A DNA stretch of 64,000 bases from assembly GCA_949710005.1 (NCBI GenBank), contig OX453283.1, positions 26,382,052 through 26,446,051 of the forward strand. The letters are read 5' to 3'. Below the pieces are notes generated by a model. It was not told the origin of the DNA, did not search any database, and was given only the letters and a program-made list of their open reading frames with translations. This document shows positions 7,306 to 46,922 of this stretch, piece by piece. The position numbers and the translations under genes are program-made. Position 1 is the stretch's first letter. Each line of letters starts with the position of its first letter. Origin of the DNA: Ricordea florida. Lineage: Eukaryota; Cnidaria; Anthozoa; Corallimorpharia; Ricordeidae.

Positions 7306-7313
7306 TGATATGA

Positions 7314-12463: not shown

Positions 12464-12475
12464 TTTAAAAAAATA

Positions 12476-16934: not shown

Positions 16935-16959
16935 TCTTATTCGAAACATAAAGAATAAA

Positions 16960-18489: not shown

Positions 18490-18497
18490 ATGACTGG

Positions 18498-18611: not shown

Positions 18612-18696
18612 ATGTGACATGATTCTCCTATTTTAGATAACGCGGTTGAATAATATACAAATTCTTGTTATGTAACACTGACTTGCGTTATATAAC

Positions 18697-19305
18697 CTAG
18701 TTTTTTTGTTGTTTCTCTTCTGTTTCGTGGCACTCTTTACACTGATCCCTACGTCTGTTGTGTTTGCATATACATAACCTACACCACCATCTTTGTCTTC
18801 CATGAATACATATTTCAGATCCCCCACACTCTTTACAACAATTCTTTCTTCTTCCATGAATACATATTTGGGATCCTCCACACTCTTTACAATAACCCTT
18901 TCTTCTTCCATGAATACATATTCCTTTCCCGTTGCAGTCTTTACATATATACCTCACCCGTTTATGCTCACAAATACTAGAGCCGTTGCATTCTTTACAT
19001 CGATATTTCCTTCGATTATGCTCACAAATACTACCACCTTTGCATTCTATACATCGCGTCTTCTGTCTGTTGTGTTCACATATTTGAGATCCTCCACAAT
19101 CCTTACAATAATATTTAATCTTTCCATGAATACACTTATACTTATTAGTTTTTGTTTTATCCTCAGTTATCGGTTCATTTGAGGGGGTGGGTTCTGGGAT
19201 ATTACCCAACGCTTCGATAAGTTGAGCTTTTTTCAATCGATAATATCCTTTAATACCCTGCTCTTTAGCAAGTTGTTTCAGTTCTTTTACTGTGTTCAAT
19301 TCCAT
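18697..19305 (-). CDS. SAP-like plus tandem CxH/CxxC zinc-repeat protein, element 1
   Basis: 202 aa. The N-terminus (TVKELKQLAKEQGIKGYYRL) has the helix-extended-helix look of SAP/Rho-N DNA-binding domains. From residue 57 on, about eight repeats follow the pattern C-x-H-x-(R/K)-x(2-5)-C-x2-C-x-G, spaced about 17-18 residues, likely zinc-binding. Nucleic-acid binding is probable (inference). It faces inward from the right end, matching 46380-46796 in element 2. On the minus strand TTTAAAGAG (19325-19333) lies 28 nt before the ATG. Confidence 0.75.
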   Translation of the reverse strand: MELNTVKELKQLAKEQGIKGYYRLKKAQLIEALGNIPEPTPSNEPITEDKTKTNKYKCIHGKIKYYCKDCGGSQICEHNRQKTRCIECKGGSICEHNRRKYRCKECNGSSICEHKRVRYICKDCNGKGICIHGRRKGYCKECGGSQICIHGRRKNCCKECGGSEICIHGRQRWWCRLCICKHNRRRDQCKECHETEEKQQKN

Positions 19306-30245: not shown

Positions 30246-30251
30246 CGCGTC
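30246..30251 (+). repeat. Left 6-bp target-site duplication (cgcgtc) of element 2
   Basis: Identical to 46917-46922; six-base duplications are characteristic of Polinton integration. Confidence 0.9.
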
Positions 30252-30507
30252 AGTAGGGGGAAACAAAGTGACAGTTCTAGGCCAGCACTTCAAGACAAAA
30301 TACTGCAAACGTGCAGGATTCTGAAAAATGATACCATATCATCTTAAAGGGATGACCTGTACATCCAAACTCATCATGCCCAATCAACGTCAAACTGTCA
30401 AAGAGCTCCGCGCCATTGCCAAGGATCGCAAGATAGCCAAATATTATAAGATGAGCCGGGGAGAGTTAGTGGAGGCGCTGGGGATGCCTGAAGAGGTACC
30501 TAGTGGT
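30252..30507 (+). repeat. Left terminal inverted repeat of element 2
   Basis: 256 bp, starting agtaggggg. It extends into the polymerase gene and encodes its SAP-like N-terminus. It differs from the right repeat by an extra caaa near 30264 and one g/c change. Confidence 0.93.
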
Positions 30508-33500
30508 AGTGGTGGTGGTGGTGGAAACGAGTTACTAATAGAGGGGCTTCCAATGCCTGAGGTACCTAGTGGTAGTAGGAGAACATCGGATGTTCTAGGT
30601 GAGCCTGTCCCAGAAATAAGTGTACCTATTCTTAGGCCTACAAAATACGTACCTCCTAGTCGGTATAGAACACTTCTTTCGGAATATAACAGAGGAGTAC
30701 AAAAGAAAATAAATAAGTTTGCGAATTGGATTTTGAATTATGTACCAAAGAGAATCAAAAAGCCTGTGAAAGAAAGAATCAGGAAGTTGAAGGAGGAAAT
30801 AAGGAGCATTTGGGCTGTACAGGAGCCGTTCAGTGTAAAAGAAAAGGAAAGTGCACTGAAAGGGTTCTTCAAGACCTATCGGATCGATGGTAAGAGGGGG
30901 TACGGTCCTAGAGAGTTCATCAAGAAAATAAAACCAAAGGTTTTGGAGTTACTTTATAGTAGAAGAAAACCCATCAAGGTGAAGTTTGTACTAACTTGTA
31001 CATTCGTAAAAGACGATCTTGTTACGGGTAATGTTGAATACACTGAGGGGTACTTTCATACTAAACTTGAGATAGTAACGGACTCAACTGACACATATAA
31101 GTTATTCGATGCAATGACGGGATTACAACTTGAAAATGTCGCGAAGTTTGAAGGTGAACAGTCTGGGTGGCAATTTGATCGAGTTGAGTACTTTGATATA
31201 CACATTAACCCATATGAGCCTGTGTCTGGGACTTCTTACATACCTCTACCAAAGGTTCTGGCTGATAAGAAGGCTATAATCAATGTCAAGAATGAGAATG
31301 ACCATGAGTGTTTCAAGTGGGCGGTGACATCTGCTGTATTTCCCAAAGAGAATCACGGTGAAAGACTGAATGCTGAGATGAGAAAGAACTCTGAGAGGTT
31401 TGACTGGACGGGGATGGAGTTCCCTGTTACACTAAGGGACATTACCAAGTTTGAAAAGCAAAATCCTTACGCCATTAACGTATATGGATACGAGTCTGGG
31501 GTAAACGTTTTGAGAATCAGTAAACGGCGAGAGGTGAGAGTGATAAACTTACTTTTGTTACACAAAGATGAAACGAATCACTACTGTTGGATTAAGGGCT
31601 TGAGTAGGCTTTTGTCATCACAAGTTGATAAACACGATGGTAGAAAATACTTTTGCCACAGATGTCTTAACCCATTCAATAAACAATCCTCACTAGACAA
31701 GCATCTAGAGTTTTGCAGCAATCATCAAGCAGTCAAGACGACAGTCCCCATGAACAAAGATGGGAGCCCGCAGTTCTTCCGTTTCAAGAATCACAACAGG
31801 AAGATGGAGGTACCGTTTGTTGTGTATGCAGATTTTGAGTGCTACACTGAAAAGATGTATACTTGTTACCAAGATGAGGGTAGGAGCTTTACCAATAGAT
31901 ATCAAAAGCATAAACCATCAGGTTTCTGTTACATGATCAAGTGCTTTGATAACGCTATATTCGAACCCAAACTTGTAAGGCACACAGCTGAATCACCAGA
32001 CGAAGATGTACCCAAGATGTTTATGGAGAGCTTGGAGTCGGATATCAAACAAGTCTATGATAGGTTCAAGCTACCCAAAAATTCTCGTGTCAGTCAGGAT
32101 GAGAGAATAGCCTATGAAAATGCCACACATTGTCACATCTGCGGATCGATGCTTGGCCATGACAAGGTGTTGGACCATTGTCATCTTAGTGGAAAGTACA
32201 GTGCAACTGTACAGAAAGTGCAACTTGAATTACAAGGTGCCTAATTTCATACCAGTTATATTCCATAACCTATCCGGATACGATGGTCATTTATTTGTGA
32301 GGAACATAGGTGAATCGAAAGGTAAGCTGGATTGCATACCAATCAACGATGAAAAGTACATTTCGTTCACGAAAGAGATTGTTGTCGAATCTTACAAGAA
32401 CAAGAAAGGGAAAATGGTTGACATTAAACGGGGAATCAGGTTCATTGATAGCTTTCGGTTTATGGCGGCGGGCCTCAGAAGGTTGGCTGACAACCTACCA
32501 CAATCTTCTCTTGTGAATGTAAAGAGTTGGTTTGAAAGGGTGATGGAAGATGGCACAGACTTGCAGTTACTCACTAGGAAGGGGGTATTTCCGTACGATT
32601 GGTTTGATGGGTTTGATAAGCTCAGTGAAACTCATCTCCCACCAAAGGATGAGTTCTACTCGAAGCTCTACAATGCTGAAATATCGGATGAGGATTACCA
32701 GCATGCTCAGAACGTGTGGAAAGCCTTTGGGATTGAGAGCTTCAGGGAATACCACGATCTTTACCTTGAACTGGATGTTTTATTGTTGGCTGATGTCTTC
32801 GAGAACTTCAGAGATGTTTGTAGGAAGAACTACGACTTGGATCCAGCTTGGTACTACACTGCACCTGGATTGGCATGGGACGCGGCCCTGAAAATGACCA
32901 ATGTGAGATTGGAACTTTTGAATGACCCTGACATGCTTCTCATGGTTGAGGAGGGCATCCGAGGGGGTATCTCCATGATCTCAACTAGATATGGTAAAGC
33001 CAACAACCCATACATGAAAGATTATGACCCATCATTACCAACAAAGTACATCACATACATGGATGCAAACGGTTTGTACGGATGTGCAATGAGTAAACCT
33101 TTACCAACACATGACTTTCGATGGTTGACTGAAGAAGAGCTTGTATTGAAGTGGAAAGATCTACCATGCATACTAGAGGTTAATCTAATGTACCCAAAGC
33201 ACCTTCACAAACTGCATAATGACTATCCATTAGCACCAGAGAGAGTTACGGTAAATGGTGTGGATAAGCTAATTCCAAACCTAAGGGACAAACGAAAATA
33301 CATCATTCACCACGAGACGCTGAAACAGTATTTGAGTCTCGGGTTGAGAGTCTACAAGATATACAGGGGCATCACATTCAAAGAGTCCGCGTGGCTGAAG
33401 CCCTATATCGACCTGAATACCGAACTAAGGACCAAAGCAACAAACGACTTCGAGAAGGACTTTTTCAAGTTGATGAACAACTCAGTCTTTGGGAAAACGA

Positions 33501-34264
33501 TGGAGAACGTGAGGAACAGGGTGGACGTTCGTTTGGTCACTGAAGAGTCAAAAGCCAAGAAGTTGGTATCGAAGCCGAATTACCACCACAGCACGATCTT
33601 TTGCGAAAATCTGGTTGCAGTACAAATGAAAAAGACAAGGTTGGTGTTGGACAAACCCATTTACCTAGGCTTTTCAGTCCTGGAAATAAGCAGGACGATA
33701 ATGTACGACTTTCACTACAATTACATAAAGCCCAAGTATGGTAGCAAGGCCAAGTTGTTATTTACAGACACTGACTCACTGGCATACGAGGTGGAGACGG
33801 ATGACTTCTACAAAGACATCAGCCCAGATGTGAAAGACAGGTTCGACACCAGCAACTACCCCGAAGATCATCCATCCGGCATTGAGGTGGGCGTGAACAA
33901 GAAAGTCGGGGGCATGTTCAAGGATGAAGCGGGTGGCCAACAGATCATAGAATTCGTGGGTCTCAGGTCCAAACTATATTCATACATGATGGATGAGGGA
34001 AAGGAGGAAAAGAAGTGTAAGGGTGTGAAGAAGGCTGTCGTCAGAAAGAGCATAAGCTTCAAAGATTACAAGGATTGCCTCTTCAATCAAAAATCACAGA
34101 GGAGGACTATGAATATCATCAGGAGTCACCTACACGACGTGTACACAGAGACTGTGAACAAGGTGGCACTATCATGCGAAGACGACAAAAGGGTGGTAAG
34201 GGAGGATGGGATACACACATATGCATATGGTCACTTTAGGACTCTGATTTCGGTAAAAACTTAA
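30376..34264 (+). pseudogene. polB: Family-B DNA polymerase with N-terminal SAP-like domain, element 2, frameshifted
   Basis: The ATG at 30376 (MPNQRQTVKELRAIAKDRK) is preferred over 30328 because CTTAAAGGG lies 33 nt before it. A SAP-like domain (about 1-38) is encoded by the terminal repeat, followed by a Gly/Ser/Pro linker. The polymerase then parallels element 1: C2HC finger, VVYADFEC exonuclease I motif, CHICGSML..DHCHLSGKY zinc motif, GYDGHLF, DANGLYGCAMS, KLMNNSVFGK and DTDS. The frame is lost at about 32195-32235, within the DHCH zinc motif, and reopens in another frame to 34264. The break fits a small deletion. Everything else looks intact, so the damage may be recent. Confidence 0.92.
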
Positions 34265-34303
34265 TGATTTAATTATACATATATACAACTAGACAAAGTC
34301 GGT

Positions 34304-35140
34304 ATGGATTACGATTCAGAGGAAAATTATCACAGCCTTGTCGATCATTTTCAGTCTATGTTCAAGAAAGCTGATGAAGAGGACGAACAGGTTTGTAAGC
34401 ATGAAAGTGTGTATAGGGATAAGACAGGGATTGTTGTTTGTAGCCTCTGTAAGACTGAACTAGAACGGATGGACTACTCTAAACGAGAATGGACGATGTA
34501 CAACTTATCAGCCAATAGGTGTGATCTTCGTAGATCAAAACCAAAGGGAGTTCGTAATGTATTTGAGAGACATGACTTGAATGTGTCTTCTATGATGATC
34601 GATATCATAGAAGCCAAGTATCAAGAGATTCTAAAGTTTAAGTGTAAAAGTCGCGGTCAGATTCGTACGTCTTTGGTGGCTTCATGCTTGTTTTATACAT
34701 ACCAAGAATTTGGTGAGTATCGTACGTTAGATTACATTAGGAATTTGTTTGGAATCAAGAAGAGAGCCATGACACGTGGTTTACAAATGTACTTGGAAGC
34801 ATTCCCAGAGGTGAGAACCAACTACATTACACCAGAGAAACTTATTCCCTGGATAATGAGAGTTACTGGGATTGATGAATCTCATCAAAGACGTATTTTG
34901 TCAATTGCCAAGTACTTTGGAGCAACATCACAGATTCTTGAGCGCGGTACTAGCGGTGTAGTTGCAGCGGGTATTGTCTTCTTTTACTTATGTATGAACC
35001 AGGAATATAAAAATCAAATAGGTATGACAAAGAAGATCTTTGCAGACAAAGTTAAAATTTCGGACATTTCATTGATGAAGACAGTTCGCGAGATGGCTGA
35101 CATCTCAACAATGTCACTTAAGTACTCTAGAGGGTGGTAA
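34304..35140 (+). CDS. TFIIB-like transcription initiation factor (278 aa)
   Basis: The zinc ribbon has C31-x-H33 and C46-x2-C49 (VCKHESVYRDKTGIVVCSLC). Two cyclin-like repeats follow: about 80-165 (GQIRTSLVASCLFYTYQEFG) and about 170-260 (GATSQILERGTSGVVAAGIV). The layout is that of TFIIB and its viral homologues, which recruit RNA polymerase to promoters. It lies between the polymerase and integrase, overlaps the integrase gene end by 27 bp tail to tail, and is absent from element 1. I know of no standard Polinton gene set with it. The frame is intact and the start is a single ATG; an AT-rich gatttaattatacat precedes it by about 35-40 nt. Confidence 0.82.
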   Translation: MDYDSEENYHSLVDHFQSMFKKADEEDEQVCKHESVYRDKTGIVVCSLCKTELERMDYSKREWTMYNLSANRCDLRRSKPKGVRNVFERHDLNVSSMMIDIIEAKYQEILKFKCKSRGQIRTSLVASCLFYTYQEFGEYRTLDYIRNLFGIKKRAMTRGLQMYLEAFPEVRTNYITPEKLIPWIMRVTGIDESHQRRILSIAKYFGATSQILERGTSGVVAAGIVFFYLCMNQEYKNQIGMTKKIFADKVKISDISLMKTVREMADISTMSLKYSRGW

Positions 35141-36103
35141 TTCAGTATCATCGGGAACAACTTGGAGTTCCTCGCGCACAAATCCTCGCTTCGATACTCC
35201 ATCTAAATAATACACCACTGGTTGATCTGGTGAAATTACCGTTCTCGCTATGTCATAAACCTCAAGGCTCCATACGGGATCAGTGGCTCTTCGTTTGTCA
35301 CCACCTTCATCTTCACCGGGCGAATACAAATACCTAACCTCAACTCCCGGGGGCAACCTCTTCTCATTCAAACCCACAGCTCTCTTGTATTCCATAGGCT
35401 TAACATCAATCTCTTTCAATTCCAAAGCTTCATCAGGCTCTTTACCTGTGATGCGTGTTGGTTCAGAATTCAAAGTCTTCATAATGGCGGGCAGCCTCTT
35501 CACCCAAACCCTAGACCTAACATCACTCACCATCTCCTGTGCATATTGATGGCTAAATAATTTCTCACCAAGCGTTCTGTTAGCCCTCTCTACAAAAGCC
35601 TGCGCTCGATGATTACCAGCTTTACTTCGCTGTACGTCTACTTGATGCTTATTCATCAAGTGAGTGACACTACCCATGAATTCTCTACCGGGGTCCACCA
35701 TTAATGTCTTTGGCCACTTTAGCCTCCGAGCATAAATCCTCTCAAACGCCTTGGCCACTTCACCACTATCTTTCGAGGACAACGCCTCAGCATCCTTGTA
35801 CCTAGACGCGATATCAACCACAACCAGCGCATAGCGGTATGTTTTTCTTCTCACTGTATCGTGAGGAAGAAACAGCAAGTCCGCTTGATGGATTTGATTT
35901 GGTTTGCCAACGACCCAATGTGGTCTGGGTATGTACCTTGGTGGAGGAACATATATCTGCCACAATGCTTGCTTCTCCAACCAATCTCTGGCAACACTTT
36001 CGGTCACTCTGGCCGCACTCGCCAACTTTGCTATGGCCGAGTATCCTTTCCAGTATCCATCTGTAGAGTAGTATAATCGACTTAAAATATTGTCACTAGA
36101 CAT
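35114..36103 (-). CDS. int: Polinton rve-family integrase, element 2
   Basis: 329 aa, intact. It has the same catalytic D-D-E pattern as element 1: IHQADLLFLP, MVDPGREF and FVERANRTL, plus VVVDIASRYKDAE. The N-terminal helical region (YWKGYSAIAKLASAARV) and basic C-terminal domain are conserved. It is divergent from the capsid gene across a 25-bp gap. Since this element has clean 6-bp duplications, an integrase of this type presumably inserted it. The codon choice differs widely from element 1 while the protein stays conserved, consistent with selection on the protein. Confidence 0.93.
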   Translation of the reverse strand: MSSDNILSRLYYSTDGYWKGYSAIAKLASAARVTESVARDWLEKQALWQIYVPPPRYIPRPHWVVGKPNQIHQADLLFLPHDTVRRKTYRYALVVVDIASRYKDAEALSSKDSGEVAKAFERIYARRLKWPKTLMVDPGREFMGSVTHLMNKHQVDVQRSKAGNHRAQAFVERANRTLGEKLFSHQYAQEMVSDVRSRVWVKRLPAIMKTLNSEPTRITGKEPDEALELKEIDVKPMEYKRAVGLNEKRLPPGVEVRYLYSPGEDEGGDKRRATDPVWSLEVYDIARTVISPDQPVVYYLDGVSKRGFVREELQVVPDDTELPPSRVLK

Positions 36104-36128
36104 TTACAACAAGATTCAGTGCATTTAA

Positions 36129-37364
36129 ATGGCTGGAATATCATACATTCTTGATACTGATCGTGTTCCCAGGATGCGTAAAGGTTTGAGGGCCGAGGCC
36201 TCATTAAATCGGATCACGCTAAACCCCTCATCAGCCAATCCTGGCGAGACATTATACATTGAAATACCAAAACTGCCGGACAATCTGGTGATTGTGCCTG
36301 GCAGCGTGTACATCACCTTCGATATGAGTGTGACAGGTCACAAGAACAACACACTTGTCAACAACTTGGGAAGGAACCTCGTTTCACGATACCGGATTCT
36401 ATTCGGGGGTGAAATCATAGAGGACATTGATAGGTTTGATTTGTTCAAGACTTATCACGATTTGTTTTTGTCAGAGACTGATCGTAACAACAGATTGAGA
36501 CAGGGCATATCATCCGAGAATGTGAGGAAAATCAGAACCAATGCCGGTGACAAAGTTACCTCAAATGCAGCAGAAAATACTCTACGTGCAGTCCATAACA
36601 CCAGGTACGAAATACCATTGGACCACACGATACTGAAAGATCATGGAATCTTTTATCCAAAAGCCTTACCACATCCACTCAAATTCGAAATAACTCTAGC
36701 TCCGGTCTCTGATGTCGTCATTTACTCAAACGCTGAAACACCACCTGATTACAAATTAACAAATATGGAGCTTGAGTATCAATGCATATCAAGTGACCGA
36801 TTAGCCAATCAAGCCATTGCATCGTACCAGAATGGAAGGGTTTTCACGTATGAGAAGATACTTCTTCACAAAACGTTCCCAATCTCTGAGAACACTGATG
36901 GTGTGATCAATGAGCATATTAACGTACCCAGGAAGTCCATGACTGGGATACTATGTATTTTCACAGCCCCATATGCAGCAGGTGCTAGGGACTCTGAGAG
37001 TTTTGTGAACTCAAAGATCACATCGGTCAAGATTGACAAAGATGGAGTACCAAACAAACTTTATTCGAAAGGTATGATACCAACTGATTTATGGCAGGCC
37101 ATAATTAAACGAGTTGGTATCGATGATTCCATCAAGGAGTCTGATTTCTATACGAACAAGTTTGCTTTGTGGATCGATCTGAGGAGTTACCCCGACAATG
37201 ATGTTCATGGAAACGGTTTGGAGCTAACTAGTACTCGGGATGGCATAAGACTCGAGATTAACAGGGAGAAGAGAGGAGGCAGGGTTCTTACCTGCTACAT
37301 GTTCGTGGTTGCTGACGCCGCTATGGAGATTATGAATTCAAATTTAAAAAGGATACTGTACTAG
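36129..37364 (+). CDS. Putative double-jelly-roll major capsid protein, element 2
   Basis: 411 aa, intact. It matches 4916-6154 over its whole length, with EASLNRITLNPSSANPGET near 25, VIVPGSVYITFDMSV near 55, LFGGEIIEDIDRFDLF near 92 and CYMFVVADAAMEIMNSNLK at the end. No membrane segment is seen. The conservation despite silent divergence supports a structural protein under selection. The fold assignment rests on position beside the packaging ATPase and remembered similarity to Polinton/adintovirus capsids. Confidence 0.75.
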   Translation: MAGISYILDTDRVPRMRKGLRAEASLNRITLNPSSANPGETLYIEIPKLPDNLVIVPGSVYITFDMSVTGHKNNTLVNNLGRNLVSRYRILFGGEIIEDIDRFDLFKTYHDLFLSETDRNNRLRQGISSENVRKIRTNAGDKVTSNAAENTLRAVHNTRYEIPLDHTILKDHGIFYPKALPHPLKFEITLAPVSDVVIYSNAETPPDYKLTNMELEYQCISSDRLANQAIASYQNGRVFTYEKILLHKTFPISENTDGVINEHINVPRKSMTGILCIFTAPYAAGARDSESFVNSKITSVKIDKDGVPNKLYSKGMIPTDLWQAIIKRVGIDDSIKESDFYTNKFALWIDLRSYPDNDVHGNGLELTSTRDGIRLEINREKRGGRVLTCYMFVVADAAMEIMNSNLKRILY

Positions 37365-37377
37365 ACATAATCGAAAG

Positions 37378-38016
37378 ATGAATGAGTTAGTGGATAAAAT
37401 TCCATTCAACTGTATCATTACGGGACCTACGAATTGTGGAAAGACTCAATACATAGTGGACCAGCTTCGAGGACACTTTAGGGGCGTGTTCGACTATATT
37501 GTCTTGATCTGCCCCACTTATATCCATAACAAGACTTACAGAGGCTTTGCAAAGGGGGACAAGAGATTTTGGGTACTCTCACCAGACTCTAGTAATGAGG
37601 ACGAGATTGACTATTTGCTAGCGCTTTGCTCAACGTTATTCTCGGGTGAGAACACACTCATAATACTGGACGATTGCGCTGTTTCGAAAGACTTGAAGAA
37701 CCGGACAAACAAATTCATCAATCTGGCCTTTTCCGGGAGGCACATTGGCATATCCGTGTGGGTTCTCACCCAACAGCTCACATCGATCTCGAAACCATTC
37801 CGAGAGAATGTCGCATGCGTGGTGTCGTTTTACAACCCGTCTGAAACCGCGATGAAAATGTTATTTGAGGAATATGGTGGTGCATTAGATGCTGAAAAAC
37901 GCAAGAGGTACAAGAAGCTACTCGAGACTGAAAAGTACGCCAGACTTTGCTTTTCACTGCGTCACCCGTTTGAAAAATACTTAGAGATACCCGCATCTGG
38001 GGCCAAACATGGCTAA
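37378..38016 (+). CDS. A32/FtsK-type genome-packaging ATPase, element 2
   Basis: 212 aa. Walker A is GPTNCGKT (16-23), Walker B is LIILDDC (about 94-100), with the WVLTQQLTS sensor and FRENVACVVSF conserved. The end overlaps the next gene by 8 bp, so the two are tightly linked. Role: genome packaging, as for element 1. Confidence 0.9.
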   Translation: MNELVDKIPFNCIITGPTNCGKTQYIVDQLRGHFRGVFDYIVLICPTYIHNKTYRGFAKGDKRFWVLSPDSSNEDEIDYLLALCSTLFSGENTLIILDDCAVSKDLKNRTNKFINLAFSGRHIGISVWVLTQQLTSISKPFRENVACVVSFYNPSETAMKMLFEEYGGALDAEKRKRYKKLLETEKYARLCFSLRHPFEKYLEIPASGAKHG

Positions 38017-38608
38017 CCCTGAAGAGATACTGAACGGTGAAGCATCAGTTGATACAACACCATCGCCAATCAATGATTTGGAGTCAAAGAGGGAATCTCT
38101 TTCAATCCTGGCTTGTCTGGGTTCGACGAAGGAGTACACGGGTGTGGTCATGGACCTCTCCGACATAACCAAACTATCGGACAAGGATGTGGAAAAGTAT
38201 TACAAAAGGTACCAAGTTGTGTCGGGCAAGAAGATTGCCGATGGCTTGGCGGACTCTTCTTTTCAATTGATGGCTAAGGCTGTGGATCATGGTTTGAGAA
38301 ATTACGGAAATATAGATGACAAAGACGCTCTTGTGAGAGATTGTAAGAAAGATGAATTGATAATGAAGGAGATCTCAAACATATCCGGGTCACTTGTACT
38401 CAAAGGTGGAAGATTCACGGCATTACTTTCGGCATTTATTCATTTTGCAAAGCACTTCGAGTTGAGAGAGGATGGATACCCAACACAACTTGAGCAAGAC
38501 CTAAGCACCAGTCCAACACAACTTGAGCAAGACCCAACACAACTTGAGCAAGACCTAAGCACCAATCCAACACAACTTGAGCAAGACCCAAAACAACTTG
38601 AGGACTAA
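38009..38608 (+). CDS. Conserved Polinton protein with repeated Gln-rich tail (199 aa)
   Basis: Homologue of 6820-7305: ESLSILACLGSTKEYTGV near 31, KDVEKYYKRYQVVSGKKIA near 60 and LVLKGGRFTALLSAF near 130. After residue 155 the tail repeats PTQLEQD and LST in alternation (bases 38478-38600), a polymorphic-looking minisatellite that is in frame. Function unknown. Confidence 0.75.
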   Translation: MANPEEILNGEASVDTTPSPINDLESKRESLSILACLGSTKEYTGVVMDLSDITKLSDKDVEKYYKRYQVVSGKKIADGLADSSFQLMAKAVDHGLRNYGNIDDKDALVRDCKKDELIMKEISNISGSLVLKGGRFTALLSAFIHFAKHFELREDGYPTQLEQDLSTSPTQLEQDPTQLEQDLSTNPTQLEQDPKQLED

Positions 38609-38671
38609 AGTGGATTCTAGGAAAAGTGTCTTCAAGACTGGTTGTACCATGGGCAAAAGCACAACAAAAAG

Positions 38672-39284
38672 ATGCAACAAAACGAACTTGAGTTTCACGT
38701 ATTTACCTTATATGGTACGAACGACTCTGACCTTGATAAGCTCTTCAAGAGAGTAAGGCCAGAGATTGTTAATGCCTTCGAGTTGGTCAACCCTACTTTC
38801 ACAAGAGTTGAAGTTAGTTTCGGTCTAGACAAGGATCAACAACCATATCGAGTCATAGTAGACCATTATGATGATCATGATGAGCCTGACTCTGCAGATA
38901 CGCTGATCGCGCGTACTGTGAGAGTTTTGAGAGCGACATTGAGATATCATTTGAGGGATAGACTTCAACCCTTGTTTGATTATATGCACAAGGACATCTA
39001 CGATAGACGGTTTGATGAATCTATTAACCCCGATGAGAGTTTCAGAGCAATGGACAATGGGGATTGGGATGGGGAAGAGGGTTTGGAAGAGACTGGTCTA
39101 TATGGCCTTATGGTCAAGGAGTTTGCAAAAGATAAGGAGTCTTGCACACAAGCACTACCACAAATCAAACTTCTACAAACGTCTGCGGGATGAACTAATG
39201 CCTATAGCGTGGCACCCCGATCGTGTGTGGGATTGGTGCTTCGATAACGAGCATAAGAGAGAAGCCGAGCAATTATGGGAGTAA
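38672..39284 (+). pseudogene. Accessory-cassette protein, frameshifted, with AWHPDRVWDWC tail
   Basis: The first ATG is at 38672 (MQQNELEFHVFTLYGTNDSD). The first frame runs to 39193, but the coding signal shifts to another frame at about 39115-39175 and ends at 39284 with RLRDELMPIAWHPDRVWDWC and a charged tail. I recall such AWHPxRxxDWC endings in proteins of large DNA viruses, unchecked. It is rich in acidic residues with no membrane segment. It is absent from element 1, and function is unknown. A sequencing error cannot be excluded. Confidence 0.5.
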
Positions 39285-39317
39285 TGACACAAGTCCCATA
39301 TGAAACACTATTGTAAA

Positions 39318-39344
39318 CCTCTTAGTAGACGACCTACTAAGAGG
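39318..39344. promoter_or_regulatory. Stem-loop 1 of the accessory cassette
   Basis: An 11-bp perfect stem (cctcttagtag / ctactaagagg) with 5-nt loop acgac, followed at once by CTTAAAGAT, the element's start motif, then the ATG at 39395. Confidence 0.75.
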
Positions 39345-39394
39345 CTTAAAGATAGGAATGTACTATGTCATAACCGAAAGGTAAAGTGTTGAAC

Positions 39395-40381
39395 ATGACT
39401 GAACCAATCTTCATTTCACTTGACTCTGATTTTGACTGGAACACCATCGTTGTTTCTGAACCCAAGAGTAAATCCTTCAACAAAGGCAGAAGTAATGTAC
39501 AAAACCAATGGGTTACTTCAGATGTTTACGTACAAGGTCCCAACGGTGTGAAGCGACCGATTTTCATTGAATTATCCAAGCAATTCTTTTCGGGTATATC
39601 GGGGGTGTGGCCATTTGGAACCGACAAAGACAGTCGCAGACTTGAGACGTTGGAGGGGTTCCAAATTTCATACCCAATGACATCGATTCATACCATGGAT
39701 TGCCCAACAACCGAAGAGATCAAGACTCGAAAAGCACTTGATAATGTAATGAAGATCACATTGAACTCACTCAAAAAGCTTTGCAACAAACCAAAATCAG
39801 AGAGGTCAGTTCCACCCGCAACTTTCAATGCATACACGACTGCCAAGAGTGAAAATGATTGGTCTTTTGCTGTGAAACCGATATACGATTACACAAACAT
39901 CACAGACCAACAAACGGGTGAGAAGACAAAGGACAAAAGCAGCCCACAGCGTGCCTACCTCAAATTCATAACCTGGGGTAAGGGTTGTAACATCCTATCC
40001 AGAACTTGTGTATACGGTCCAGATGATGAAATGGTTAACCCACTTGAATACATGTGGCAACCCGACAAGTATGTAAGCGGTTTTGGTCATCCTGTTATCC
40101 ATTGGGATGGCATATTCTGGGGATCCCACGGGCAGACTGGTTACGGTGCCTCAGCCCGCCTTCGTGTTTCTGAGATGAATTTCACTCCAAGTGATTACAA
40201 CAGCATGACTTGCTTTCGGATGCTACCTTCCAATAATGCTACAACACAAGAACCAGAATCTAGCTTGTTACCTTCCAATAATGCCACACCGCAAGAATCG
40301 GAATCTCGTATGTTAGCCCCCAATGATGCCAGTCAACAGGAATCAGAAGATGAAAATGAGTATGTGATAGAACATAATTAA
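39395..40381 (+). CDS. DUF2738-like viral protein (328 aa)
   Basis: ATG at 39395 (MTEPIFISLDSDFDWNTIVV). Blocks such as KSFNKGRSNVQNQWVTSDVY (near 29), GFQISYPMTS (near 89), FNAYTTAKSENDWSFAVKP (near 150), YLKFITWGKGCN (near 190) and GHPVIHWDGIFWGSHGQTGY (near 232) resemble the DUF2738 family of large DNA viruses as I remember it. In those viruses it is an uncharacterised protein, possibly tied to DNA metabolism. The tail carries three imperfect copies of an LPSNNATxQExES unit. It is in the accessory cassette between stem-loops 1 and 2 and absent from element 1. No break is seen. Confidence 0.6.
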   Translation: MTEPIFISLDSDFDWNTIVVSEPKSKSFNKGRSNVQNQWVTSDVYVQGPNGVKRPIFIELSKQFFSGISGVWPFGTDKDSRRLETLEGFQISYPMTSIHTMDCPTTEEIKTRKALDNVMKITLNSLKKLCNKPKSERSVPPATFNAYTTAKSENDWSFAVKPIYDYTNITDQQTGEKTKDKSSPQRAYLKFITWGKGCNILSRTCVYGPDDEMVNPLEYMWQPDKYVSGFGHPVIHWDGIFWGSHGQTGYGASARLRVSEMNFTPSDYNSMTCFRMLPSNNATTQEPESSLLPSNNATPQESESRMLAPNDASQQESEDENEYVIEHN

Positions 40382-40393
40382 TTAAGACTTACT

Positions 40394-40420
40394 TCTCCTA
40401 ATAGACAACCTATTAGGAGA
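40394..40420. promoter_or_regulatory. Stem-loop 2 of the accessory cassette
   Basis: An 11-bp perfect stem (tctcctaatag / ctattaggaga) with 5-nt loop acaac, followed by GTTAAAGCTAAGTGATAA. The next ATG (40452) is 30 nt after TTAAAG. Confidence 0.8.
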
Positions 40421-40451
40421 GTTAAAGCTAAGTGATAATGAAGATACAAAC

Positions 40452-40676
40452 ATGGCCAACACCGAAGTTATTGATAGAGCGACTGTGAAAGAATATTGTG
40501 AAAATTACTGTAGAGAAAATATAGAAAGAGTGTGTCTGAGAACATTATTTAAATTTGAAGAGAAAGAAAGAGAAAAGTTTGAGGAGTCCGCTAATAAAGC
40601 ATTTTCATATTTGAAAGGTGCGATGTTCGGATTTGGATTATATTGGTTGTATAACAAACGTCATTGGGTTTGGTAG
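40452..40676 (+). CDS. Small protein with C-terminal membrane segment (74 aa)
   Basis: The N-terminal part is charged and Cys-containing (VKEYCENYCRENIERVCLRT), then LFKFEEKEREKFEESANK, and a hydrophobic end LKGAMFGFGLYWLYNKRHWVW. It is flanked by stem-loops 2 and 3. There is no counterpart in element 1 and no recognised family. The consistent start motif supports expression. Confidence 0.6.
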   Translation: MANTEVIDRATVKEYCENYCRENIERVCLRTLFKFEEKEREKFEESANKAFSYLKGAMFGFGLYWLYNKRHWVW

Positions 40677-40693
40677 ATGTTGGTTCAAAAAGA

Positions 40694-40720
40694 TCTCCTA
40701 ATAGACACCCTATTAGGAGA
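40694..40720. promoter_or_regulatory. Stem-loop 3 of the accessory cassette
   Basis: Same 11-bp stem as stem-loop 2, loop acacc, followed by GTTAAAGCTTAGTGATAA. The ATG at 40752 is again 30 nt after TTAAAG. Stem-loops 2 and 3 with their leaders form a roughly 60-bp direct duplication around the 74-aa gene. Confidence 0.8.
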
Positions 40721-40751
40721 GTTAAAGCTTAGTGATAACAGAGATACAAAC

Positions 40752-41237
40752 ATGGCTGAGCAACCTGTTGAGCAAATCACAAGAGAACCCGATGTCAAGG
40801 ATAGAGTGAAGGATCCCAAGAAGGTGGAGGCCGGGAAGAAACTGGCCGAGTACCACAAGAAGGCTAAGGAGGCATTGAAGGAAAAAGAGCAACGGGATGC
40901 ATTGATAGATAGTCAGAAAGAAAAGGAGCAACAGCAGCAGCAAGATGCATTGATAGATAGTCAGAAAGAAAAGGAGCAACAGCAGCAGCAGCAAGATGCA
41001 TTGGTGAAAAAGGATGATGATGATGATGATGCCTGGATACCCAGCCTATCCTTCGAGAATTTGTTAATATTCGGTTCCATAGGGTTAGCTGCTTACTCAT
41101 TATACACGAGATACAAAGACAAAATAGCCGACTTATACGTACCTTCTGTAACCTTCGGACCACCTCCTGTCAGGGACATGAATGAGGTCAAAAGACCCTC
41201 AAACAGAGAAAACAGCTTAAATGACGAGTTGATGTAA
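40752..41237 (+). CDS. Single-pass membrane protein with Gln-rich repeat (161 aa), element 2
   Basis: Homologue of 7348-7746. The ATG at 40752 (MAEQPVEQITREPDVKD) is chosen over the in-frame ATG at 40677 because the stem-loop and TTAAAG motif precede it. DPKKVEAGKKLAEYHKKAKE is followed by two copies of a unit with DALIDSQKEKEQQQQQ, then acidic DDDDD, WIPSLSF and a hydrophobic segment (LLIFGSIGLAAYSLY). The Gln repeat is expanded relative to element 1. Function unknown. Confidence 0.72.
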   Translation: MAEQPVEQITREPDVKDRVKDPKKVEAGKKLAEYHKKAKEALKEKEQRDALIDSQKEKEQQQQQDALIDSQKEKEQQQQQQDALVKKDDDDDDAWIPSLSFENLLIFGSIGLAAYSLYTRYKDKIADLYVPSVTFGPPPVRDMNEVKRPSNRENSLNDELM

Positions 41238-41245
41238 TACACAAA

Positions 41246-41473
41246 ATGTCAGAAAACAAGGTTGTAAAGATTGTTACAGATTCTGCAGTTATCGTGGTAA
41301 TCGCTGGTGGTTTGGGCTATGTGGGTAAGAAGGTCCTGAGAGAAAAAGAATCGTTAATTGGCGATCCATTCTCCAGTGTCATGGATTTTGTCAAATTGGT
41401 CGCTGTTATATCATCGAGTATAGCCATCAAAGATTATTTAGAGGATAGAAAGATCTTACCAAAAGAGCTTTGA
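41246..41473 (+). CDS. Small membrane protein (75 aa), element 2
   Basis: Homologue of 7788-8006: KIVTDSAVIVVIAGGLGYVG (about 7-26) is a membrane helix, and the end is YLEDRKILPKEL. Only 8 bp separate it from the preceding gene. Confidence 0.7.
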   Translation: MSENKVVKIVTDSAVIVVIAGGLGYVGKKVLREKESLIGDPFSSVMDFVKLVAVISSSIAIKDYLEDRKILPKEL

Positions 41474-41695
41474 GTGGCTACAGTGACACTTGATCCTAAA
41501 AGATTCAAACTTGCGTTGAATGAATATATGAAAGATGGGCCTAGTTTGAGTGACTTCATAACCAAAGATGGCGATGGGTCCGTAATATCCTTTGACGAGA
41601 AAGGATTCAGTATGACTGTACTCGATCATTTGAAGGACGGTCCCAAGTTGAAGTACTTTTTCAACATTGAATTAAGGAATCCTACAATAGATTGA
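41474..41695 (+). other. Open 73-codon stretch without ATG start
   Basis: Directly follows the previous stop in the same frame. It reads LDPKRFKLALNEYMKDGPSL and ends IELRNPTID just before the next gene. No ATG begins it; a downstream ATG near 41528 would give a shorter peptide. It may be a readthrough extension of the 75-aa gene, a decayed small gene, or chance. The matching place in element 1 is interrupted by a transposon and shows no counterpart. Confidence 0.3.
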
Positions 41696-41698
41696 CAA

Positions 41699-42106
41699 AT
41701 GGCGACTATAGCGATCGTTATCGGAGGTGCAATCGCCAATGCAGCTGCCCTCGGTTTTGGTACTTATATAACACATGTCCTCACTGGATCATCACCCGAA
41801 GAACTCGAAAAGGAAAGGAAAAGGCATGACAAAGCAATGGAGGAGTACCAAAAAGATTACGCTGCGTTCGAAAAGAGGCGCTTGGCATATATTGACTTTA
41901 TGAATAAGAGGAAGAGTGATGCTGACCAGGCATCTGAGAACATATCGGAGACGGATGAAGCGATGAGATTGTACAATCAAATAGGCGATCCTCCTAAGTT
42001 CTCTGACTATTACAGACCGAATGAAGACCAAAGAATGGCTCAGATGGTCTATGTCGCGGTTGGGATGTTAATCCTGGTATATATAGTTAGCAAGTGGGTG
42101 CGATAA
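41699..42106 (+). CDS. Conserved Polinton membrane/coiled protein (135 aa), element 2
   Basis: Same layout as 11063-11455: a hydrophobic start (MATIAIVIGGAIANAAALGF), a charged helix RHDKAMEEYQKDYAAFEKRR, conserved KFSDYYRPNEDQRM near 99 and a C-terminal hydrophobic segment. Probably a membrane or virion component; no known function. Confidence 0.75.
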   Translation: MATIAIVIGGAIANAAALGFGTYITHVLTGSSPEELEKERKRHDKAMEEYQKDYAAFEKRRLAYIDFMNKRKSDADQASENISETDEAMRLYNQIGDPPKFSDYYRPNEDQRMAQMVYVAVGMLILVYIVSKWVR

Positions 42107-42140
42107 ACTAACTTAGAAGTTCCCATATTCGACATCAAAT

Positions 42141-43109
42141 ATGGCAACTGCTTATCCTGAAGGAGAAGAAGAAAACGATCCTTTCGGGTTGGGGGAAGAA
42201 AACAAACAAGAAGATCCCGATGATTTCGAAGATACCCCGCTACTTGGTAGGCAGCCTCCAACACCAGACAAAGTCTTGGAAACATCCACGACCAAGGGTG
42301 CTAGACGTAAATTAGGGTATCTTCAATTACCACGTGAAGATATAGAGATGGAGATTATGGAAGAAAACAAAGATGAAGTCTGGACCAAGATTGTAGAAAA
42401 GTTCCCAGATGCCAAACCCAAGTTTCTTTTCAAATACGATGAATGGGGTAGAATCGTTGTCAAAATCAGTGGTAAAGATCCAGGCAAAAACGTATGGCAT
42501 CCATTATTCGATGAGTATGGTGATGTGAACAAAGGATTACCCAAAACAATTACAAAAGGTCTAGGCCCAAGCGCGGAAGAAATTGTGGAAGCCAATGATG
42601 GTGAGATAACCAAGAGAAAAGGGTTCGTTAGTAAATTGAAGGAGAAGGTAAGATTCCATCGAGAAAAGGCATTGAAAACCCCGGAAGAAGTAAGTCAAAT
42701 AGAGACCATCGAGGAACAAATTGTTGAACAAGAGCAAGAGATAGCTAACTTGGAAGGTGAGAATGAGCAAATCCAGGAACGAATGTCATTGCGAGATAGG
42801 GTGAAAGCGATCTTCAAGAAATATGGTTTCACGGTATTTGCCATTGTGAGCGCCGTTGGTGTGGTCATTGGCGTTATCGTATCTAATCTTTCCAAGGGCC
42901 TATCCAAGTTGGGCAAAGGTGTGGGGGACGGGCTGAAGACCATCGGTAAGAAACTTGGTGAGCTATTGCCTGGTATGGTGGGGGCGATCGTGAGTTTCCT
43001 GTTCAAGACCGCTGGGGAGGTCATTTCATTCCTGGGTAAGAACGCTTGGCTGTTGATCCTCGCTGTTGTAGTGTACTTTGTGGATGAATTAAAGAAGAGG
43101 CGTCGTTGA
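42141..43109 (+). CDS. Coiled-coil, two-helix membrane-active virion protein candidate (322 aa), element 2
   Basis: Homologue of 11507-12463. The acidic N-terminal third has diverged. From LGPSAEEIVEANDGEITKRK on the match is strong: coiled coil (about 170-215), MSLRDRVKAIFKKYGFTVFA, transmembrane helix, LGKGVGDGLKTIGKKLGELL amphipathic segment, second hydrophobic helix and basic KKRRR end. The pattern of variable acidic head and invariant membrane half suggests the membrane half is the functional core. Confidence 0.75.
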   Translation: MATAYPEGEEENDPFGLGEENKQEDPDDFEDTPLLGRQPPTPDKVLETSTTKGARRKLGYLQLPREDIEMEIMEENKDEVWTKIVEKFPDAKPKFLFKYDEWGRIVVKISGKDPGKNVWHPLFDEYGDVNKGLPKTITKGLGPSAEEIVEANDGEITKRKGFVSKLKEKVRFHREKALKTPEEVSQIETIEEQIVEQEQEIANLEGENEQIQERMSLRDRVKAIFKKYGFTVFAIVSAVGVVIGVIVSNLSKGLSKLGKGVGDGLKTIGKKLGELLPGMVGAIVSFLFKTAGEVISFLGKNAWLLILAVVVYFVDELKKRRR

Positions 43110-43115
43110 ATGTAA

Positions 43116-43748
43116 ATGTTGAGCATAACAATGTACGAGTCTGAAACCAGGGTGTACTTGGACCCTCCCCTGGACAAGGTTCGAGAGATACAACTCCTGG
43201 GTTGTAATATACCCAAACGATTGGTGAATTTCAAGGATCGCCAGGGCATACTCAATGAGGAAGATCGACCCATCATAATAATCCAGCCCGGTACATACTC
43301 TCTGCGTGGTATACACGCAATATTTCTCAATGATACGGATAAGGCCAAGCTATCGATCATTGAGACTGATACTGTTGACTATTTGTACTCCAACAAGAAC
43401 TCCAACATCAAACTTACGAGAGGACTGCAAGTTGCTCTGGGTTTACCTGAAGTCATAACGCCTGGCAAGTTATACCCCACAAATCTCCAGATCAAGGAGC
43501 CGCTGAGACTTATGTGCAGTCTAGTGAATAACCAGTCATCCTATATGAATAGCGCTCGATTTACAGGCCCCGTGAAGATCTCACCCTCACAACTCCTTGC
43601 CAACATACCATCACAGGATTATCCAGTCATTCCCGTTCATAAATCTAAAACCCCCGTAAATCACTTCGATCTTAGCATCCTCGACATCGAATGGAACAAA
43701 CTGAATCTGAATGGGTCTCCAATCACCTTCAGTTTGCGATTCAGATAA
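43116..43748 (+). CDS. Minor capsid (penton-like) candidate, full-length (210 aa)
   Basis: Begins MLSITMYESETRVYLDPPLD. The middle is beta-rich (IIIIQPGTYSLRGIHAIF near 54) and the end has ISPSQLLANIP and PVNHFDLSILD. There are no membrane segments. It is the intact form of the gene shortened at 12476-12868. A single-jelly-roll minor capsid role fits size and context but is unproven. Confidence 0.6.
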   Translation: MLSITMYESETRVYLDPPLDKVREIQLLGCNIPKRLVNFKDRQGILNEEDRPIIIIQPGTYSLRGIHAIFLNDTDKAKLSIIETDTVDYLYSNKNSNIKLTRGLQVALGLPEVITPGKLYPTNLQIKEPLRLMCSLVNNQSSYMNSARFTGPVKISPSQLLANIPSQDYPVIPVHKSKTPVNHFDLSILDIEWNKLNLNGSPITFSLRFR

Positions 43749-43781
43749 CATTTTAAAAGTACGTGAGATCCGTAACCAAAC

Positions 43782-44385
43782 ATGGGTGAGTACAAAGGAA
43801 TCTACCCCAACTTGCCTGCGACGGCGCCTCCTCCTGATGGCGCTAATTTCAGATTACAACAATGTTGTGACATTTTGAATAAGCTGAAGGCTGAATTGAA
43901 TCATTACGAGATGGTACTAAAAAAGTACAACCGGTCAAAAGGCGCGCTCATAAACGCAAGCTCGACCTGTGGTATCCTATCTTGTATTTTGGCGGCTGGT
44001 GGATTGGGCACATCTCTTAGTGGAGTCGGAATTGTCGCAGCTGTGCCATTAGGTGTAGTGAGTGGTGTGTTTGTCTGTGCATCTATAGCATGCCAACACA
44101 TATCAAAGAACCTGTCCAAGAAAGCTGTGAAGCATCAAAACACCATCACACTGGCCAAATCCAAAATAAACACCATTGAAGACCTGGTTTCCAAAGCCCT
44201 TAGTGACAATAAGATCTCTGATGAACAATTCATTCTCGCTTATCATAGAAGAGCTCAAGAAGTTTGAAAAGCTAAAGGCTGAGATACGGTCTAAAGCTCA
44301 AAAAAATATGGATGGGGAGGACCCATTGGTATTGAGGCAGAGAGTACGCCAAGAAATCCTCAAAGAACTAAAAGGAGGACTATAA
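43782..44385 (+). pseudogene. Small virion/membrane gene, frameshifted near 44230
   Basis: Homologue of the LINE-split gene at 12879-16856. It starts MGEYKGIYPNLPATAPPPDG, has a hydrophobic Gly/Ala/Val segment (about 68-110) and a helical tail. The frame is lost at about 44225-44240 (after ISDEQF) and continues in another frame to 44385, ending LKEL KGGL-like. A TTTAAAAGT motif lies 30 nt before the ATG. Both copies of this gene in the window are therefore broken, by different events. Confidence 0.75.
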
Positions 44386-44454
44386 CTATAGTTTATGAGC
44401 AAAACATCTACTAATCCAAATATACTTAAAGGTTGATATACTAGTAATATAACC

Positions 44455-44754
44455 ATGGCTAATATTCAATCTATTGAAGAGAAATTCAAGTCCCTAGAAC
44501 GTGCTGGTATAAATTTGGATAAAACAAAGGAATTCAAATACTTCGAAATTGCTCTCAAAGATTTGATTAATGATGGACTACAAATACTCAAAAACAAGTT
44601 TATGGACAATAGAAATGAAACCACTAGGAAGGAAATCAGTGCTATTTGTGAAGAAAAGATTATAGAATCAAACAAAGGATTGTATGTAGTTGTTGTATGT
44701 TCCGCAATACATTGGACCCTTGGTTTGGCTAGTGCTATATATTTTCTCACATAA
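44455..44754 (+). CDS. Small protein with C-terminal membrane segment (99 aa), element 2 only
   Basis: MANIQSIEEKFKSLERAGIN begins a charged helical protein that ends in a hydrophobic segment (LYVVVVCSAIHWTLGLASAI). CTTAAAGG lies 29 nt upstream. No counterpart between 16856 and 16960 in element 1. Function unknown. Confidence 0.6.
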   Translation: MANIQSIEEKFKSLERAGINLDKTKEFKYFEIALKDLINDGLQILKNKFMDNRNETTRKEISAICEEKIIESNKGLYVVVVCSAIHWTLGLASAIYFLT

Positions 44755-44798
44755 TGACTTAAAATCATGAACTCTTCTACCCAAAGTCTGGATAGAAG

Positions 44799-46325
44799 AT
44801 GGGCTTACTAAACGACTTCAGAAATAGGTATCCTAAGGCTGATTTGAACCAATTCAAATTTGTGAATGATAATTATGGTGGTTATATGGTATGGACACGT
44901 AATGGATTAACAATCATGTCTTATGATGATCCCACTGGCAAGACATGGACTGATGACATCCGACCAGGTCTCAAACTACTACTATGGATTGATTTGGGAC
45001 TGGATGATACATCAAGCCCCTTCCCAAAGAGCCTGACCATGACAAATCGCTCCTACCCAATTCCAGCCATTGATTTTGACGAACCCACAAGTAACACCAC
45101 AAACATGCTGACGTCATTGGACATATACGTGTCCAACACGAAAAAATTCACCGCTAAGATGCGTAACATATTTACCTCCCAAGTTGTGACTTTCAAGTTT
45201 GGTAAACAAAGTCGAAAATGGCTAAACTCCCCCGACATGAACTACTGGCCTCAACAACTAAACTTTGCAGTGTGGTGTGCGACCTCTGGCTGTGGTGTCA
45301 GCCCATTTGAAAGTTTGAACTACCCCAAAGTGGTGGCTGGCTTCATAAAGTTTCATGTGTATTTCACCATAAGGCGAATACTGTACGAATTGAATGTACC
45401 TCTGCCAGATGAACAACCATTTGCCATAGCTAACAACCCTTACAGTAAAGTTGCATACCAAAGATTATGCGCTGAATTCGGTATCGCTAATGATTCTGAT
45501 TTCAGATGGAAAGGCGGGCGAAACCATGGTCTTGGTGATATATTCCTTGATTATGGTGCTGGTTACCATGGAAGAGGTGGAGGATTTCAAAATGTACATT
45601 TGATTCGAAACTATGATGAAGACGCAAACCAATGGCCTGGTGATGGTGGTAAATTCTCAGATGATGGTGGTAAGAAAGAAAAAGGTAACCTCATCTCATT
45701 CATTCGCAATGATGACTTTGCTGGGTACAAGTATGCTTGGTTCATCCCAACGAGTGGTTATGGGCTCAGCAAGGCTGGGCTGGGCAGACTGAATCGATCT
45801 GCTGAGGCCTTCGTTTACTGTGTGCTGGGATCGCAAGTCAATACACGAAACTCGATTGTGGGCACGGGTGGTGGGGCAATTGAAACTCAACAAGAGTTCT
45901 TGGCTCTATTTGAAAGCAGTGTGATTGAGAACGACATATCAAGTTCAGTACAAAGGTACCAACCCGCAACCCAGGAAGCGAAGCTAAGATTGGATCTGGC
46001 AATCGCACCTGGAGTTTGGCTAATGCCCAGTAATATGATCATAAACACGGAGAGTGTGGTTGGTTACAACAACAACCTAATGAAGGCCACGGGTGACATG
46101 AAGTTTGGAATCAACTCAAATGTAAACCTCGAGACCATGACTGTAGGAATAAGCCATAACTTGGGCTCTTCGAAAGTTAAGTTACCACATGCAGCTACCA
46201 GAACCGAAACTGTACAGGTTAAAACACCAATAACGGATGTTAAACCTGAAACCACACAACATGAAAATAATATGATTACACTGATAATCGTAGTTGCTGG
46301 ATTGGGTTGGGCTTTGTTTCGTTGA
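44799..46325 (+). CDS. Large conserved Polinton protein with C-terminal membrane anchor (508 aa), element 2
   Basis: Homologue of 16960-18489 over its length: LLNDFRNRYPKADLNQF, MTNRSYPIPAIDF, YVSNTKKFTAKMRNIFTSQV, AVWCATSGCGVSPFESLNYP, GLGRLNRSAEAFVYC, QQEFLALFESSVIENDISSS. It has a short insert relative to element 1 near residue 145 (SPDMNYWP). The polar stalk differs in sequence, and the anchor is LIIVVAGLGWALFR. Intact. Best guess: a virion structural protein facing a membrane. Confidence 0.78.
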   Translation: MGLLNDFRNRYPKADLNQFKFVNDNYGGYMVWTRNGLTIMSYDDPTGKTWTDDIRPGLKLLLWIDLGLDDTSSPFPKSLTMTNRSYPIPAIDFDEPTSNTTNMLTSLDIYVSNTKKFTAKMRNIFTSQVVTFKFGKQSRKWLNSPDMNYWPQQLNFAVWCATSGCGVSPFESLNYPKVVAGFIKFHVYFTIRRILYELNVPLPDEQPFAIANNPYSKVAYQRLCAEFGIANDSDFRWKGGRNHGLGDIFLDYGAGYHGRGGGFQNVHLIRNYDEDANQWPGDGGKFSDDGGKKEKGNLISFIRNDDFAGYKYAWFIPTSGYGLSKAGLGRLNRSAEAFVYCVLGSQVNTRNSIVGTGGGAIETQQEFLALFESSVIENDISSSVQRYQPATQEAKLRLDLAIAPGVWLMPSNMIINTESVVGYNNNLMKATGDMKFGINSNVNLETMTVGISHNLGSSKVKLPHAATRTETVQVKTPITDVKPETTQHENNMITLIIVVAGLGWALFR

Positions 46326-46339
46326 TGGACTCGATATGA

Positions 46340-46368
46340 TTTTTGTAACGTGGTTCGCGTTACAAAAA
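46340..46368. terminator. Hairpin between convergent genes of element 2
   Basis: An 11-bp stem (tttttgtaacg / cgttacaaaaa) with a 7-nt loop, in the 54-bp gap between the 508-aa gene (+) and zinc-repeat gene (-). The T- and A-runs would suit 3'-end formation on either strand. Inferred. Confidence 0.5.
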
Positions 46369-46379
46369 TGCACACTATA

Positions 46380-46796
46380 TTACTGTGACTTCATAAGATC
46401 ACGGCAAGCTTTACAACGATCTTTACGTTTGTAATGTTCACATATGCCCTTTCCCCCACACTCTTTACATCTGTACCTAGTTTTACCATGAGAACATACT
46501 TGGGAACCACCACAATCTTTGCAAGAGTACTTTACTCTATCATGAGTACATATACCCTTACCACCACATTCTTTGCAACATGCTTTCTGTCTTAGATGAG
46601 GGCATATTTGTGATCCCATACAATCCTTACACTGAACCTTACGCCTGCCATGGTTACATTTTCCACCACTAGGTACCTCTTCAGGCATCCCCAGCGCCTC
46701 CAGTAACTCTCCCCGGCTCATCTTATAATATTTGGCTATCTTGCGATCCTTGGCAATGGCGCGGAGCTCTTTGACAGTTTGACGTTGATTGGGCAT
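46380..46796 (-). CDS. SAP-like plus tandem zinc-repeat protein, element 2
   Basis: 138 aa from ATG 46796, chosen as for the polymerase because CTTAAAGGG precedes it. The first 40 residues (MPNQRQTVKELRAIAKDRK...) match the polymerase N-terminus with at most one changed residue seen, because both are encoded in the terminal repeats. Five to six CxH..CxxC repeats follow (CNHGRRKVQCKDCMGSQIC and similar). Likely nucleic-acid binding. Fewer repeats than the element-1 homologue. Confidence 0.78.
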   Translation of the reverse strand: MPNQRQTVKELRAIAKDRKIAKYYKMSRGELLEALGMPEEVPSGGKCNHGRRKVQCKDCMGSQICPHLRQKACCKECGGKGICTHDRVKYSCKDCGGSQVCSHGKTRYRCKECGGKGICEHYKRKDRCKACRDLMKSQ

Positions 46797-46916
46797 GATG
46801 AGTTTGGATGTACAGGTCATCCCTTTAAGATGATATGGTATCATTTTTCAGAATCCTGCACGTTTGCAGTATTTTGTCTTGAAGTGCTGGCCTAGAACTG
46901 TCACTTTCCCCCTACT
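46665..46916 (-). repeat. Right terminal inverted repeat of element 2
   Basis: 252 bp, ending ccccctact. It encodes the N-terminus of the zinc-repeat protein on the minus strand. Confidence 0.93.
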
Positions 46917-46922
46917 CGCGTC
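46917..46922 (+). repeat. Right 6-bp target-site duplication (cgcgtc) of element 2
   Basis: Matches 30246-30251 exactly. Confidence 0.9.

Follow-up and report, generated by a model that had tools for sequence, protein, structure and literature searches.

The window analysed here, a 64,000-nucleotide stretch of animal DNA, contains a Polinton-type element of 16,665 bp (E2; 30252..46916) that carries a gene for a TFIIB-like protein of 278 amino acids (P0001; 34304..35140, + strand), which was recognised from the open reading frame (ORF) list, a family profile, NCBIfam, structure models and BFVD. An earlier interpretation of the same DNA, made from the letters alone (the sequence-only reading), had placed a single intact frame at exactly this position, and the frame was open over all 278 codons; in 60 random windows of 64 kb, matched to this one in dinucleotide composition, the longest ATG-initiated ORF was 176 amino acids. 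The four ligands claimed for a zinc ribbon (codons C31, H33, C46 and C49; 34394..34450, + strand) were all present and were near-invariant, both in a 79-row alignment of homologues (73/75, 74/74, 76/77 and 77/77, respectively, of the rows with a letter at the position) and in 50 genomic copies (50, 50, 49 and 50, respectively; the copies read were the 30 top-ranked matches and 20 from further down the list), and the ribbon model PF08271 recognised 3 of 14 members of the family, with a best value of 3.9e-5. A B-reader-like stretch (E62 W63 ... R72 C73, EWR...DPSR in relatives; 34487..34522, + strand) was identified by alignment to human EWRTFSN..DKATKDPSRV; W63 was found in 77/77 and R72 in 74/75 rows of the homologue alignment, and E62, W63 and R72 were kept in 38, 50 and 45 of the 50 copies. 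P0001 itself retains these three residues, with R64 and DPS changed. About 12 residues lie between R72 and the helix at 84, as read from sequence and model; the corresponding reader-to-core stretch of human TFIIB has about 46 residues. The two cyclin-like repeats that had been proposed correspond to a predicted core of two helical repeats, which matched the TFIIB core arrangement when two structure models were compared: the first repeat spans residues 84-172 (34553..34819, + strand; structure models, with an NCBIfam TFIIB match at 116-238) and the second residues 177-277 (34832..35134, + strand; structure models). A further helix is predicted ahead of the ribbon (residues 6-27). As a single sequence P0001 matched no TFIIB model in Pfam, PF08271 included, and no TFIIB in a PDB search. 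Its identity was reached through the family profile, NCBIfam and structure models only, and these support assignment of the predicted product to the TFIIB family. The lack of a structural match, which had been named as a refuting outcome, did not come about.

The occurrence of TFIIB in giant viruses is well known, and the best BFVD match listed for P0001 was the TFIIB of Marseillevirus LCMAC102 (38% identity over 251 columns, 7.2e-20), the second being that of Marseillevirus marseillevirus (24%, 4.8e-12). Distant members of the family retained 35-50% identity, and identity to human TFIIB was 16% in structural alignments. An unrooted tree with 86 rows, composed without named marseilleviruses or cellular TFIIBs, had the clade of the window gene (10 more rows, on contigs of 9-17 kb) nested among several branches of members on contigs of 50-534 kb, which on that size and the BFVD names would be giant viruses. 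The donor would most likely have been a marseillevirus-like giant virus, or else some relative of such viruses; scans of viral contigs with three alignments found no relatives. The marseillevirus-like proteins (LCMAC102 and Marseillevirus marseillevirus) share with P0001 the ribbon, a B-reader remnant and two cyclin repeats. Unlike them, P0001 has a degenerate B-reader, lies in a 16.7-kb integrating element in which no polymerase subunits were recognised, and is present in many copies in an animal genome; LCMAC102 is described as a single contig of 395,459 nt with TFIIB and polymerase genes (PMC6401483). From eukaryotic TFIIB (SUA7/GTF2B), P0001 differs by its 16% identity, the pre-ribbon helix and the short reader-core linker. 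In one giant-virus-sized branch of the family (P0069, P0070 and relatives), TFIIB is joined to a SAP domain (PF02037 and PF00382).

That the gene is carried by a Polinton with proven ends, as had been claimed, was borne out by the inverted-repeat arms, ends, target-site duplication and Pfam matches by which E2 was delimited. The terminal arms of 243 nt (30265-30507 and 46665-46907) were 100% complementary; beyond them, past a 4-nt difference, the termini read AGTAGGGGG...CCCCCTACT (AG...CT ends), and a 6-bp duplication, CGCGTC, was read in the sequence on the left (30246..30251) and on the right (46917..46922). A DNA polymerase B-like gene (polB; 30328..34264, + strand) consists of two overlapping frames (30328-32244 and 32114-34264) and is so named from motifs read by eye, such as DANGLYG, NSVFGK and TDTDSL. 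No domain or family library searched named it a polymerase; 7993 homologues were obtained among 7995 sequences scored, the nearest named relatives being those of two sea anemones, Nematostella and Actinostola. The TFIIB-like gene is followed by an integrase on the opposite strand (35114..36103, - strand; PF00665 rve, 7.3e-9), the two genes overlapping at their 3' ends, and then by a major capsid protein-like gene (36129..37364, + strand; PF16903, 2.3e-6) and an A32-type packaging ATPase (37378..38016, + strand; PF04665, 2e-12). Among the E2 ORFs that were scanned, none was matched by Pfam as an adenain-like protease. The 6-bp duplication, AG...CT ends, integrase, capsid and A32 ATPase are shared with animal Polintons/Mavericks; unlike these, E2 has a TFIIB, none being reported for them in the parts of the open literature covered.

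A related element without the TFIIB gene, E1 (493..19305), with limits taken from alignments and ORFs, contains an inserted retrotransposon ORF, and its left end was not found within the window. E2 aligned to E1 until approximately 34233 and again from approximately 35133, positions equivalent to 3887 and 3910 in E1, so the alignment skips the gene and its claimed absence from the neighbouring element was confirmed. In E1, polB runs straight into the integrase gene, and the polB tail is the integrase 3' end read backwards. By pattern, such an antisense-integrase tail was present in 27 of the 120 polB relatives listed (of 7993), including those of Nematostella and Actinostola; its identity with the adjoining integrase was observed directly in the window only. 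Two polB relatives and two TFIIB homologues share contig sizes of 15,922 and 15,823 nt and were taken as linked on one contig each. The window polB grouped with these two (100/100), with a tailed polB as the sister of the group (99/96), inside a 35-row clade of which 27 rows were tailed. The polB tails and the position in the polB tree indicate, at the level of sequence comparison, that the TFIIB gene was gained in the polB-integrase slot of the E2 lineage; loss in E1 is disfavoured by the same two lines of evidence. The sequence-only reading had described the gene as cargo gained or lost between polymerase and integrase, of which the slot and the gain are supported and the loss is disfavoured. 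The polB antisense-integrase tail (P0089-P0112) is in itself a fossil of a neighbour gene, usable to chart the slot across animals.

Searching the genome (538 Mb, 48 contigs) gave 293 candidate TFIIB copies, of which 139 were scored and 133 of these were without stop; polB preceded and integrase followed the gene in 50/50 copies read. A listed TFIIB lay within 1.1 kb of 102 of the 122 E2-type integrases listed, and within 5 kb of one more, and beside none of the 121 E1-type integrases listed, even within 10 kb. The 20 E2-type integrases without an abutting listed TFIIB were considered as candidate TFIIB-free elements, which failed for all that were read: 4 of the 19 with no listed TFIIB within 5 kb had TFIIB sequence in the slot (4/4, two partly deleted), and absence is therefore not demonstrated for any E2-type element. 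Altogether, TFIIB was located between polB and integrase in 54/54 loci read (two partly deleted). With approximately 5,900 integrase candidates per query, the Polinton load of this genome is very large and comprises at least two lineages.

The motif that had been suggested as a target of the protein, TTTAAAAGAT, did not occur in E2 even with one mismatch allowed and was rejected as an E2 promoter; it was found exactly before 2 of 10 E1 ORFs. An open 7-mer search returned ACTTAAA, which, with up to one mismatch, preceded 12 of 16 E2 ORFs at a distance of no more than 60 nt, a number reached in 0/200 shuffles, although two of the 12 share the same inverted-repeat sequence and are not independent; for E1 and E2 together it was found at 19 of 26 ORFs (0/200 shuffles). 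Upstream of the TFIIB gene itself, ACTTAAT is accompanied by a TATA-like TATACATAT stretch (approximately 34253..34280, + strand), and in the genomic copies ACTTAA was present in 45/50 and a TATA-like TAWACAWAT in 47/50. The gene may have changed motif specificity (T to C ahead of the core); with two elements to go by, this is speculative.

The homology, fold, slot, gain, copy number and conserved zinc ligands we count as demonstrated, and P0001 is probably an initiation factor of the TFIIB family that entered a Polinton lineage, with a marseillevirus-like virus or a relative as the likeliest source, and that would serve the element's own promoters. A viral-type TFIIB gene would have been inserted between the convergent polB and integrase genes. 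In the protein, the zinc ribbon would contact an RNA polymerase and the shortened B-reader would work at the start site; with the two cyclin repeats placed on TBP and promoter DNA, transcription would be directed to E2's own promoters with their ACTTAAA-like motifs. This suggests that E2 may choose its own transcription start sites. We consider host RNA polymerase II the likelier partner, since the element persists in many copies in an animal genome and E2 showed no recognised polymerase subunit. An analogous arrangement is found in Saccharolobus solfataricus rod-shaped virus 1, an unrelated archaeal element whose TFB was also matched in BFVD (3.1e-5, 17% identity): like E2, this small virus brings a TFIIB-type factor only, and would therefore have to use a foreign polymerase.

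Several results weigh against this interpretation. Among the E2 ORFs scanned, no product was recognised as TBP or as a subunit of a polymerase, and both would therefore have to come from host or helper. The motif search in E1 alone was not significant (71/200 shuffles), and E1, without a TFIIB gene, also has the TTAAA core, so the motif cannot depend on the gene. The B-reader is degenerate in the clade of the window gene (T64 for R, where R is found in 52/67 rows). The ratio of nonsynonymous to synonymous substitution rates (dN/dS) is high, with a median of 0.663 over 1015 pairs (those with dS of 0.05-1 among the 1225 pairs of 50 copies); at the same 46 loci (those of the 50 whose integrase ORF was 320 amino acids or longer) it was 0.679 for TFIIB and 0.131 for the integrase, and in ribbon and reader it reached 0.83. 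Finally, AAATATTT, reported as the marseillevirus motif (PMC7192143), was absent from E2 and occurred once in E1.

The last result bears on a doubtful but conceivable alternative, in which the factor serves the polymerase of a giant virus, these Polintons being virophage-like elements of animals that parasitise or antagonise a marseillevirus-like virus; the captured TFIIB would let the viral polymerase read E2 promoters, or would compete with the viral TFIIB. The nearest named relatives are indeed marseillevirus TFIIBs. Giant viruses with such a TFIIB carry their own polymerase (PMC6401483), regulatory elements are common to virophages and their giant virus (PMC11464507), and a homology survey assigned sequences in Nematostella RNA-seq data to Marseilleviridae (PMC7077227), although these assignments could derive from Polinton genes, we know of no marseillevirus of this host, and AAATATTT is absent from E2. 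That animal Polintons are or were virophage-like partners of such a virus, with a TFIIB that lets the viral polymerase switch on the element or interferes with it, seems unlikely; if true, endogenous Polintons could serve as inducible antiviral elements in animals.

The substitution rates could also reflect a hitchhiking viral TFIIB, near-neutral cargo whose intact appearance is due to young insertions, which we consider rather unlikely. The ratio of approximately 0.66, against 0.13 for the adjoining integrase, and the 100% identity of the window arms, indicating a young insertion, would fit such cargo; however, 133/139 scored copies are stop-free, zinc ligands are kept in 49-50 of 50 copies, distant family members keep 35-50% identity, and dN/dS was below 1 in 1009/1015 pairs (pooled value 0.619 for 25 disjoint pairs). 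By segment, dN/dS was 0.49 in the N-terminus, 0.49 in repeat one and 0.65 in repeat two. The high overall ratio beside the near-invariant ligands would reflect either loose constraint around a retained scaffold or rapid adaptive evolution. The value of 0.83 in ribbon and reader, together with the degenerate B-reader and a reader-core stretch of about 12 residues (about 46 in human TFIIB), might point to another rapidly evolving regulator with a TFIIB fold, for example one that inhibits TFIIB or Pol II of the host, but conservation extends to W63, R72 and the ribbon ligands, giant-virus relatives have the full EWR...DPSR, and we regard this as quite improbable. That the gene is a TFIIB or BRF exon of the host, either captured or misread, is scarcely credible: the host genome has 22 exon-like PF00382 matches, but of the 10 highest-ranking PF00382 loci 9 were without a tblastn match to the viral-type family at 1e-4 and the tenth matched only the antisense-integrase tail of one row, identity is 16% to human TFIIB and 38% to LCMAC102 (the tree being without cellular TFIIB), and the nearest relatives found were viral-type TFIIBs and not a host exon, the outcome that had been named as refuting.

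Polintons are regarded as ancient relatives of eukaryotic DNA viruses. A Polinton lineage that has gained a giant-virus-type general transcription factor, kept in 54/54 loci read in one animal genome, opens to testing the question of how such elements have their genes transcribed, and it records an exchange of genes between animal Polintons and the TFIIB family of giant viruses. The marseillevirus-type relationship, the large copy number and the high dN/dS had not been anticipated by the sequence-only reading. In the parts of the open literature searched, we recognised no earlier description of a TFIIB in a Polinton. Cnidarian Polinton capsid genes are placed outside the main animal cluster in one study (PMC10120064), which, should the host be a cnidarian, would be consistent with an unusual lineage. 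Matches to 'giant virus' transcription factors in animal data should be viewed with caution, as they may stem from Polintons. The Nematostella RNA-seq sequences assigned to Marseilleviridae might be Polinton genes like P0001 (PMC7077227).

Other features were observed in the window. The inverted repeats of E2 extend into coding sequence, and the polB-like ORF (30328) and the last ORF (46380-46844, - strand) begin with one and the same Rho_N-type domain, which the repeats encode. The polB-like proteins contain an endonuclease VII-like domain, PF02945 (577-3942, residues 394-441). Inside E1, a LINE-like ORF of 1055 amino acids (13221-16388, - strand) has endonuclease and reverse transcriptase domains, and the last E1 ORF (18697-19305, - strand) has repeated C..C/H.. 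units (ICEHNRRKYRCKECNG type) behind a Rho_N domain. Host features comprise a POT-family transporter exon (55933-56496) and a tRNA gene (60299-60371).
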